Of a stretch of DNA of 34,598 bases, positions 17,728-22,411 are shown piece after piece. The DNA is taken from positions 1 to 34,598 of the forward strand of contig JASHSV010000070.1 of the NCBI GenBank assembly GCA_030038535.1, in the 5' to 3' direction. Positions within the stretch are counted from its first letter, which is position 1. Each line of letters starts with the position of its first letter. The notes under the pieces are model-generated. The model was not told the origin of the DNA and ran no database searches. It worked only from the letters and a program-made list of their open reading frames with translations. The position numbers and the translations under genes are program-made. This DNA is from Candidatus Acidiferrales bacterium (lineage in GTDB: Bacteria; Acidobacteriota; Terriglobia; Acidiferrales; UBA7541).

Positions 17728-18210
17728 TCACTTCGCTGCGCGAAATCCGGCTTTCAACTCCTCCAACCCCGGTCCCGGCGGCAGATCGGAGTGGAATAAG
17801 CGGCGCGAGACCGGAATTGTCCCCATCGGATGCTCCAAGAGATGGAGAACTTCGGCGGTGGTGATCTCCTGGTAGCGGTATTGGCGTTTGCGCAGGCGGA
17901 TCGCGCGCGGCGCAGCGTCGATGTCCGAAGCCGTGACATGCACAATGCCGTCGAACACATAGATCGAGTCCCGCTCGTAGGTAGTGATCAGGTCGGCATC
18001 CTGGCCGGCTCGATTCTTGGCGATCTCTTCGAGGGGGGCTGCAGTGAGAAGCAAGGGAATGTAGCAGGCCTCGCACATCACGGGCTGATCGGCGAGAAAC
18101 AGGTAGTAACCATGGTGGTAGAGAGCGGCCGCCGCAGCCGGACGGTCCTGGGGCCCGGCGGCGAAAGTGAGCACTGGGAATGTGAAGAGCAGGAGCAGTG
18201 GCTTGTGCAT
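17728..18210 (-). CDS. Hypothetical protein with N-terminal signal-like sequence
   Basis: MHKPLLLLFTFPVLTFAAGPQ leader; follows hspR on the same strand; no family recognised. Confidence 0.6.
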   Translation of the reverse strand: MHKPLLLLFTFPVLTFAAGPQDRPAAAAALYHHGYYLFLADQPVMCEACYIPLLLTAAPLEEIAKNRAGQDADLITTYERDSIYVFDGIVHVTASDIDAAPRAIRLRKRQYRYQEITTAEVLHLLEHPMGTIPVSRRLFHSDLPPGPGLEELKAGFRAAK

Positions 18211-18273
18211 CGGCGTCTGGCGCGTCAAACACCGGAGCAACGGGAAAGTTTCGATTGAGGCCACGCGGCCGCT

Positions 18274-18693
18274 TCAGGACTTGCGGCTCTTGGGCTTGCT
18301 CGCGGCTTCAGCGGGCCTCACGGGAACGATGGCGCCTTTGGGCGGATGCGTGCGCTCGGAGGACACGCCGTGGGCCAGTTCCTGTTGGAGAAGGCGCAGA
18401 AACTCCTCCATCTGTTCCTGCATGTGGTTCATCCGCTCGCGCATGTTCAGGATGATTTCGATTCCGGCCAGGTTCACGCCCATCTCGCGCGCAAGGTTCA
18501 GGACGATTTCCAGGCGCTCAATGTCGGAGGGGGTATAGAGCCGCGTATTGCCCTCCGAACGCGAGGGTTTGATCAGTCCGTGACGCTCGTAGAGCCGCAG
18601 GGTCTGCGGATGGACCTTGTAGAGCTCGGCTACGGAACTGATCATGTAGCCGACCGCGCCGCGTTTTTTGGTTCGTGCGGACATGGCAGTCAC
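18274..18693 (-). CDS. hspR: MerR-family heat-shock regulator (HspR-like)
   Basis: [71 protein letters not shown] start overlaps the dnaJ stop (GTGA); ATG at 18684 is the alternative. Confidence 0.88.
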
Positions 18694-19844
18694 CGGGAAG
18701 CCTTCTCGAAAATCTCCTTGCGCGGGTCCTGCTCGTAGAAACGGCCCAGATCCCGGAGCAATTGTCGCGCGCGCTCGTCCACCGTGCTCGGCGGGACGAT
18801 TTGCACTTCCACGTATTGGTCGCCCCGATGGCGCGGGTCGCGCACCGGCGCAACTCCCTTTTCGCGCAGACGAAACTTCTGGCCGCTGGCCGTCCCGGGG
18901 GGGATGCGAAGCAGGGAGCGCCCGTCGATGGTGGGTACCTCGATCTTGGCGCCCAACGCGGCTTCGGCCACCGTCACGGGCACGTTCGTATAGATATCGT
19001 CGCCTCGCCTCTCGAAATAGGGGTGCGCGGCGACGCGTGTGACGATGTAGAGATCTCCGGGCCCCGCGCCCGGCAGCGGAACATTACCGTGGCGGGCAAC
19101 ACGGACGCGCGAGCCGGTCTCTACCCCCGCAGGGATGCGCACATCGATGGTTTCGGTGCGGCGCACTCGCCCTTCGCCGTCGCAGGTGCGGCAGGGATCA
19201 CCCACATGCCCGGTGCCCCCGCAGCGCTGGCAGGTGACGTTAAAGCGCATGCCCATGGTGGATTGCGCACGCCGTCCGCTCCCGCCGCAAACCGGGCAGG
19301 TCTTCTCGGTGCCGGCGGCCGCCCCGCTGCCGTGGCAGGTGGGGCAGGTCTCCAGACGCGTGAAGCTGATCTTTTCCACCGTGCCCCGGATCGCCTTCCA
19401 AAAATCGATGTCCACCTGGTATTCCAGGTCGGCGGGCACTTCCACCGCTTGACGCTGGGCCGCTCGCCCGCCCATGCCGGAAAAAAACTGCGAAAAGACA
19501 TCGCGGAAACTTCCGCCGCCGGGAGCGCCCGCGGATTCAAATCCTTCGAAATCCACCGGAACGTCGCCGGGGCCGGCGCCATGCGGTGCTCCAGAGCCCG
19601 GCGGAGGTATATGGTTCGAATAGAAGCCGTACTGGTCGTAGGTGGCGCGTTTTTTTGAATCCGAGAGGACGTCGTAAGCCTCTTGAATCTGCTTGAATTT
19701 TTCCTCGGCGGATTTATCACCGGGGTTCAGATCGGGATGATGCTTGCGCGCGAGTTTGCGATACGCCTGGCGGATCTCCTTGGCCGTGGCCTTGCGGCGA
19801 ACGCCCAGCAGTTCGTAAAAGTCCGTTTTGGTCGTGGTGGCCAT
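18690..19844 (-). CDS. dnaJ: Molecular chaperone DnaJ
   Basis: J domain with HPD ([14 protein letters not shown]), four CxxCxGxG-type zinc repeats, C-terminal DnaJ domain. Confidence 0.95.
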
Positions 19845-19920: not shown

Positions 19921-20304
19921 CTACAGCTTGGCCCAGCGGGCATTGATTTCCGCCAGCTCCTGATGTTCCTGACCCAGCTCAAGACGGCGACGGCGCTGCT
20001 CTTCGGTGCGCAGCCCCATCGCCGCTTCCTTTTGATTGGCCCGCTCCAGCCAGCGATCCACGGTTGCCAGGCGCTCCGCGACCGTTTCATTCGAAGCCCG
20101 GAAGCGGAGCGTGGCGCCGGTGATTTCCACCGCGCGGGGAATAAAGTCGCCGGCGACCTGCCCTTGCGCCTCGTAAAACAGCCGTTTCCAGTCGGCGCCG
20201 GGAGACTCGGAAAGGCTCACGTGGACGAGGTAGAGATTATCTTTCAGCTTCTGGACTGCCTGTGGCGGTGCGATCCGTCGCACTCCCTCAGCGCCAGCAC
20301 TCAA
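19921..20304 (-). CDS. Uncharacterised ~127-aa protein encoded between dnaK and dnaJ
   Basis: Longest ORF reaches a GTG at 20334 without SD; TTG at 20304 is preceded by GGGAGGAG. Charged, helix-prone C-terminus (VAERLATVDRWLERANQKEAAMGLRTEEQRRRRLELGQEHQELAEINARWAKL). Confidence 0.65.
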   Translation of the reverse strand: MSAGAEGVRRIAPPQAVQKLKDNLYLVHVSLSESPGADWKRLFYEAQGQVAGDFIPRAVEITGATLRFRASNETVAERLATVDRWLERANQKEAAMGLRTEEQRRRRLELGQEHQELAEINARWAKL

Positions 20305-20340
20305 CTTGGGCTCCTCCCGCCCGCGGCGGGCCACTGCCGA

Positions 20341-20384: not shown

Positions 20385-22310
20385 TCAGTTCGGACGCTTG
20401 GATTCGTCCACGTCCACGTACTCGGCATCGATAACATCTTCCTTCTTGCCGCCCGCTGCGGCGTCGTTCGCGGCCCCGGGAGCCCCGGACCCTCCGGCCC
20501 CGGCAGCAGCGCCGGCCTTGTACATCGCCTCCGCCAGGCGGTGCGAGGCACGCGTCAACGCTTCCGTGGCCGACTGCATGCGCTCCGCCCCGCCTTCGGC
20601 GATCGCCTTCTTGGCTTCCTCAATGGCCTGCTCCGCGGCGTGAACGTCCGACTCGGCCAGTTTCTCGCGGTTCTCGCGAATCAGCTTTTCCGTCTGATAC
20701 ACGAGATTATCCGCGCGGTTGCGGGCCTCCACCTCTTCCAGGTGCTTCTTGTCTTCCGCGGCGTGCGACTCCGCCTCACGGCGCATACGTTCCGCATCGT
20801 CCTTAGAGAGGCCGGTGGACGCCGTGATCGTGATCTTTTGCTCCTTGTTTGTTGCCTTGTCCTTCGCGGTGACGTTCAGGATGCCGTTCGCGTCGATGTC
20901 GAAGGTCACCTCAATCTGCGGCAGGCCGCGCGGTGCCGGGGGAATCCCCAGAAGCTTGAATTTGCCGAGCGTGCGGTTGTCGCGCGCCATGGGGCGCTCC
21001 CCCTGCAGGACGTGAATCTCCACCTCCGGTTGGTTGTCCGCGGCGGTCGAGAAAATCTCCGCCTTGCGCGTGGGAATCGTCGTGTTGCGCTGGATCATGG
21101 TTGTCATCACGCCGCCCAGCGTTTCCACACCCAGCGAGAGCGGGGTAACGTCAAGCAACAGGATGTCTTTCACCTCTCCGCCCAGCACGCCGCCCTGGAT
21201 GGCCGCCCCTACGGCGACGACCTCGTCAGGGTTCACGCCCTTGTGCGGCTCTTTTCCGCCGAACAACTGCTTGACGATTTCCTGCACCTTGGGCATGCGC
21301 GTCGCGCCGCCCACGAGCACGACTTCGTCGATTTTATCGGGCGTCACGCCCGCATCCGCCATGGCCTGCTTCACAGGACCCTTAGTGCGCTCTAGCAGAT
21401 CTTCCGATAGCTGCTCAAGCTTGGCCCGGGTGATCTTGATCAGCAGGTGCTTGGGACCGGAAGCATCCGCAGTCACGAACGGAAGGTTCACCTCCGTCTC
21501 CGTCATCTGCGATAGCTCGATCTTGGCTTTCTCGGCAGCTTCCTTCAGCCGCTGGATCGCCATGCGGTCCTTGCTCAGGTCCACCCCCTGCTCCCTCTTG
21601 AATTCGGCGATCAGATAATCCATCACCTTAATGTCGATATCGTCGCCGCCCAGGTGCGTATCACCGTTGGTGGCCTTCACCTCCACCACGCCTTCCCCCA
21701 CCTCCAGGATCGAAATATCGAAAGTCCCGCCGCCCAGGTCGAACACCGCGATGGTTTCGTCCTTTTTCTTGTCCAGGCCGTAGGCCAGCGCAGCGGCTGT
21801 GGGCTCGTTGATAATCCGCACCACTTCCATGCCCGCGATTTCTCCCGCCTGCTTGGTGGCCTGCCGCTGGCTGTCGTTGAAATACGCCGGGACCGTGATC
21901 ACAGCCTTCTGTATCTTCTCGCCCAGGAAATCTTCCGCCGCGCCCTTCAACTTGCCGAGAATCATGGCCGAGATCTGCTCCGGGCTGTACGGCTTGCCCG
22001 CAATCTCCACTCGCGCGTGATTGTCCTGGCCGCCCATCACCTTATAGGGCACGCGCTTCTGCTCGTCCTGAACTTCATCCGCGCGCTTGCCCATAAACCG
22101 CTTGATCGAATACACCGTGTTCTCCGGGTTGGTCACCGCCTGCCGCTTCGCTACCTGCCCCACCAGACGCTCACCGGCCTTGGTGATGGCCACCACAGAG
22201 GGAGTGGTGCGCCCCCCTTCCTGGTTGGGGATGACCACGGGCTCCCCGCCTTGCATCACCGCGACGACTGAGTTCGTGGTGCCGAGATCAATCCCAATAA
22301 TCTTGCTCAT
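20385..22310 (-). CDS. dnaK: Molecular chaperone DnaK (Hsp70)
   Basis: [53 protein letters not shown]-type motif, [22 protein letters not shown]. Confidence 0.98.
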
Positions 22311-22381: not shown

Positions 22382-22410
22382 ATTATGCATCTTGAGTGTA
22401 TTGTTGTCAA
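22382..22410 (-). promoter_or_regulatory. Putative dnaK promoter TTGACA-N17-CATAAT
   Basis: Minus strand -35 TTGACA (22410-22405), 17-bp spacer, -10 CATAAT (22387-22382). Confidence 0.75.
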
Positions 22411-22411
22411 G
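22391..22411. promoter_or_regulatory. HAIR-like HspR operator overlapping the dnaK promoter
   Basis: Plus strand CTTGAGT-GTATTGT-TGTCAAG versus consensus CTTGAGT-N7-ACTCAAG: 7/7 and 5/7 matches with exact N7 spacing. Confidence 0.82.

Follow-up and report, generated by a model that had tools for sequence, protein, structure and literature searches.

The gene located between dnaK and dnaJ in the heat-shock operon described here (gene X) encodes a conserved protein of an apparently unnamed, lineage-restricted family, which occurs in HspR-regulated dnaK operons of Acidiferrales-like Acidobacteria. Small proteins encoded beside dnaJ, such as DafA and CbpM, control when Hsp70 works. The modulators of this kind found in the literature consulted are CbpM/MerR-like or described as a CbpM analogue; X would represent an unrelated solution. 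X is limited to a single group of uncultured soil Acidobacteria, and its repeated losses provide natural pairs of genomes with and without the gene for comparison. Even if X were unrelated to chaperone function, it would still be a clean case of a conserved, unnamed family that is automatically annotated as hypothetical.

In the window (the whole stretch of 34,598 nucleotides analyzed), gene X occupies positions 19921..20304 on the minus strand, from a TTG start at 20304 to the stop codon at 19921, which is included. The product is a basic protein of 127 amino acids (pI 9.2) with a conserved core at approximately residues 7–95 and a predicted long C-terminal helix at residues 75–125. An alternative GTG start at 20334 would give an ORF of 137 amino acids (19921–20334, minus strand). 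The TTG codon was preferred because an SD-like GGGAGGAG lies just upstream of it, because the sister locus L002 (90% identical to X) has no upstream start other than the one equivalent to TTG 20304, and because the starts of the homologues, preceded by SD sequences, are found at the equivalent place. The length obtained with this start confirms the first-pass annotation, which had described a small protein of about 127 amino acids between dnaK and dnaJ.

X is a real gene and not a chance ORF, as judged from 28 distinct homologues (52–90% identity to X, 70% mean column identity) and a dN/dS of about 0.08. Among the 28 sequences, 21 columns are invariant: R10, P13-P14, P35, D38-W39, R41, F43-Y44, F54, R57, R67-F68, V75, W85, A89, K92, E113, E116, N121, and W124. 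The dN/dS ratio (Nei–Gojobori) was 0.078 for X and its closest relative and 0.03–0.13 for the six closest pairs. X is under strong purifying selection. The first-pass annotation had named an ORF that is neither conserved nor selected as a refuting outcome; both conservation and selection were found. The restriction to one lineage, the TTG start, and the spacers of 80 bp (dnaK–X) and 76 bp (X–dnaJ) on either side might suggest a spurious reading frame or a translational spacer with no protein function. This explanation is hardly credible and is already refuted by the purifying selection; the invariant residues and the confidently predicted fold of X likewise argue against it.

For the whole protein, modeled by AlphaFold2 with the 28-sequence alignment (mean pLDDT 82.7, pTM 0.67), strands were predicted at residues 15–19 and 24–31, followed by a helix (37–49), two further strands (60–62 and 65–71), and a helix spanning residues 75–125. 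The same order of elements was predicted for the core alone with the distant syntenic relative in the alignment (pLDDT 85.4, pTM 0.73). The models thus point with confidence to a beta-beta-alpha-beta-beta core with a 50-residue C-terminal helix, and the charged C-terminus, which had been judged probably helical from the sequence, is predicted as one single helix.

X has no matching family in Pfam, NCBIfam, PHROGs, PADLOC, or PDB, and it was rightly called uncharacterized. Pfam gave no match at E ≤ 1 and NCBIfam no match at all, and the searches of PHROGs and PADLOC yielded nothing significant. In the profile search of the PDB, only a marginal polo-box match was found (E 0.011), which weakened to 0.18 with the core alignment. 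Foldseek against the PDB returned no significant match (best E 0.24 for the whole protein and 0.16 for the core, TM about 0.4–0.5); the partial beta/alpha resemblance to the PLK4 cryptic polo box, class I secretion chaperones, and Pcc1 folds had non-significant E values and was attributed to chance. Homology to known co-chaperones was detected in none of the Pfam, NCBIfam, PDB profile, and Foldseek searches, and the literature library searched contained no paper found to treat such a protein.

The operon has the order dnaK-X-dnaJ-hspR on the minus strand. The dnaK gene (20385..22310, minus strand) encodes a protein of 641 amino acids (Pfam HSP70, 6e-259; NCBIfam PRK00290, 1.6e-303), and dnaJ (18690..19844, minus strand) one of 384 amino acids with J domain, zinc-finger domain, and C-terminal domain (Pfam/NCBIfam). 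The end of dnaJ is overlapped by 4 bp by hspR (18274..18693, minus strand; 139 amino acids), a MerR-family heat-shock repressor that scored 106.1 bits with NCBIfam NF047375, above the curated cut-off of 105 bits. Just downstream of hspR, a 178-residue ORF without Pfam match is present (17731–18264, minus strand).

A HAIR-like inverted repeat, CTTGACAACAATACACTCAAG, was located at 22391–22411, 80 bp before dnaK. It overlaps the –35 box of a sigma-70-type promoter (TTGACA-17-CATAAT, 22410–22382), and the combined operator/promoter spans 22382..22411 on the minus strand. The site has two mismatches, and with 0.77 such matches expected by chance window-wide it is not significant on that scale; none of 200 shuffles of the 300 bp upstream of dnaK matched it. 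The same element, CTTGACA-N7-ACTCAA, recurs 63–138 bp ahead of dnaK in the majority of relatives, whether or not they carry X, and the HspR-type sites are poor or absent at some relatives' loci. Between dnaK and hspR, promoter prediction yielded no internal site. Regulation of the entire operon by HspR is well supported by the shuffling result, the recurrence of the element in relatives, and the lack of a predicted internal promoter; as in HspR regulons, a HAIR-type operator lies upstream and hspR belongs to the same operon. From this layout and the operator, X appears to be co-transcribed with dnaK, dnaJ, and hspR, in line with the co-regulation suggested previously.

In actinobacteria, the slot between dnaK and dnaJ is taken by grpE, and the first-pass annotation had therefore compared X with GrpE, noting that it saw no GrpE signature in X and no grpE in the window. 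Both observations hold: no grpE was found elsewhere in the window, and X has no match to GrpE (PF01025) in the Pfam search. None of the 28 homologues matched GrpE at E ≤ 5, and comparison of the X profile with nine GrpE sequences of the lineage (hhalign) gave a probability of 0.1% (E 0.51). The actinobacterial comparison itself does not apply. The genome is acidobacterial (Acidiferrales-like) and not actinobacterial; its nearest named relatives are Candidatus Acidiferrales and other acidobacterial MAGs, and relatives lacking X, including those from other families of the class, show the order dnaK-dnaJ-hspR without grpE, which is normally the arrangement in Terriglobia. The grpE of this genome, which the first-pass annotation had proposed to look for outside the window, is located on another contig (G000:C241:5783-6223, E 1.7e-42) in an hrcA-grpE-dnaJ locus, where hrcA was assigned by reading the translation; no other grpE was detected in this genome. 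Because dnaK-dnaJ-hspR is normal here and grpE resides with hrcA elsewhere, X is an insertion into a grpE-less operon and not a grpE substitute.

With this organism's own protein as query, GrpE was found in all 29 of the X-carrying genomes searched. It is also present in 86 of the 95 genomes of the order, irrespective of X. These counts, the hhalign result, and the genomes that lack X and have no grpE in the dnaK-dnaJ slot leave very little room for a divergent nucleotide exchange factor that replaces GrpE, as judged from sequence, although the slot is that of the actinobacterial grpE and X combines a long helix with a small beta domain.

The second heat-shock locus (L001, G000:C241:4283-7723) had no dnaK in the stretch read, and its DnaJ (DnaJ2) is ~40% identical to that of the window. 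Together with the HspR operon, the DnaK machine thus seems to be divided over two loci, each with its own repressor system. In genus g6, several members (G166, G028, G174, G189, G267, G146, and G269), mostly with large genomes, possess an additional divergent GrpE (~75–83 bits) besides the main one.

X was present in 36 of 95 genomes of the order and in 26 of 250 genomes of the class, every one of the latter in the same family. In every homologue on a sufficiently long contig, X lies between dnaK and dnaJ, which answers the earlier call for a survey of synteny. A distant relative (31% identity), which belongs to a different family of the order, also shows the arrangement dnaK-X-dnaJ-hspR and shares the motifs R..GPP, P..LW..LF, and IDAWLEATN; the C-terminal helix is not recognizable in it. 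A survey of 396 genomes of the phylum revealed no further X beyond one chance-level match (4.3e-5). This match, to an NtrY-like histidine kinase (L117) from a different class, stands in another protein context and was rejected as a distant homologue. A second candidate X in G279 (contig 118) was an ABC-permease-like frame and hence a false positive, with the noise level near 1e-3. X is confined to one GTDB family, plus the one distant syntenic relative.

Within the family, 27 genomes without X have an unbroken dnaK-dnaJ junction, so that the absence is real and not due to assembly gaps. The intergenic distance is 68–222 bp in all but two of them, the exceptions being 627 bp, which holds an unrelated ORF, and 408 bp. 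In a tree of DnaK plus DnaJ, the genomes lacking X are nested among those carrying it in at least four places, and X distances track those of the unlinked GrpE (r 0.81) and DnaJ2 (r 0.84). Together, these results indicate that X has been inherited vertically and cleanly lost at least four times, a qualitative reading of mostly MAGs in which genome pairs are non-independent. As dnaK, dnaJ, and hspR remained intact in these sub-lineages, X is conserved but dispensable. Other acidobacterial dnaK-dnaJ gaps (L100 in G037, L095, L101, and L110) hold unrelated small ORFs; one of these encodes a 23S rRNA-intervening-sequence protein (Pfam, 8.5e-16), and the others are without family.

An analysis of co-evolution between X and its neighbors did not single out any one partner. 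The partial distance correlation between X and DnaJ was 0.59 when controlled for DnaK alone, but vanished (–0.06) once the unlinked GrpE and DnaJ2 served as controls, and X-DnaJ co-evolution was rejected. Among the columns of DnaK, DnaJ, and HspR, none but one conservative DnaK position changed consistently upon loss of X. The partial correlation between X and HspR was negative. The latter bears on a role of X as modulator of the repressor, by which it would couple the availability of DnaK/DnaJ to operator binding by HspR and set the heat-shock threshold. That X lies in an operon under autoregulation, whose HspR-type operator is conserved, would suit such a role, as would the reports, cited in PMC4063869, that DnaK is a co-repressor of HspR in Streptomyces and that CbpA modulates HspR in Helicobacter pylori. 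As HspR and its operator remain where X has been lost, and given the negative correlation, we regard a repressor modulator as improbable.

A chaperone-related role is suggested by position, shared control, and constraint, and an optional accessory of the chaperone machinery is the likeliest reading of X. Our tentative proposal, drawn from gene position, is that X is a lineage-specific, HspR-controlled accessory protein of the DnaK/DnaJ system, a possibility that the first-pass annotation had rightly listed. X would share one HspR-repressed transcript with DnaK, DnaJ, and HspR, and would therefore rise with them on heat shock. It may be a small modulator whose beta-rich core binds DnaK, the DnaJ of this operon, or both, while the long C-terminal helix might serve in self-association or docking; in this way it could tune either the cycling of the chaperones or the way in which DnaK feeds back on HspR.

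This accessory role is favored by the strict dnaK-X-dnaJ position, which includes the distant relative, by the dN/dS of 0.03–0.13, and by the 21 invariant columns. The putative HspR-type operator upstream of dnaK without predicted internal promoter, the globular core plus long helix modeled with good confidence, and the precedents of DafA and CbpM are consistent with it. Against it stand the lack of homology to known co-chaperones and the at least four clean losses, which show that the chaperone machine does not need X. As the test for partner-specific co-evolution was negative with unlinked controls, the proposal remains tentative.

DafA from Thermus thermophilus assembles DnaK and DnaJ as a DnaK3-DnaJ3-DafA3 complex (PMC3727329). 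Its Desulfovibrio vulgaris counterpart (DVU1875) co-purifies with DnaK, and DafA has been called an analogue of CbpM (PMC3125180). CbpM itself attaches to the J-domain of CbpA and dimerizes via a C-terminal coiled coil; its fold is helical and MerR/HspR-like (PMC4063869). X resembles these proteins in size and gene position and possibly in the use of a long C-terminal helix. Like the gene for DafA, a modulator of DnaK/DnaJ, X shares a cluster of chaperone genes with dnaJ, and like CbpM it lies next to a J-protein gene and would have a globular domain followed by a long helix. In contrast to the all-helical MerR-like fold, the predicted core contains the strands at residues 15–19, 24–31, 60–62, and 65–71, and X matched no MerR or CbpM family in Pfam or NCBIfam, nor did any of its homologues match a MerR model in Pfam; from DafA, X is set apart by description and not by sequence. 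Because of the beta-rich core and the missing MerR/CbpM similarity, X was not filed with CbpM and DafA, and a similar role would have been reached independently. It is a rather unlikely, more far-reaching reading that X founds a new family of Hsp70/Hsp40 modulators, structurally unrelated to GrpE, CbpM, and DafA, which is selective for the HspR-linked DnaK-DnaJ pair over the second, HrcA/GrpE-linked DnaJ.

The main rival to an accessory of DnaK/DnaJ, and a possible if doubtful one, is an independent heat-shock effector that rides in the operon without contact to DnaK or DnaJ, for instance a small holdase or a factor for RNA, DNA, or other clients. Such an effector would agree with the dispensability and basic nature of X, with the lack of partner-specific co-evolution, and with the unrelated small ORFs, such as that of the 23S rRNA-intervening-sequence protein, in other acidobacterial dnaK-dnaJ gaps; secretion-chaperone folds are also listed by Foldseek, weakly and far from significance. 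In none of the genomes searched was X found outside this slot, which would be unusual for an independent effector. At one locus (L038, G029:C585), X is cut at approximately residue 84 of 127 and fused directly to dnaJ from residue 18 of the latter, a junction that is either a deletion or a misassembly.
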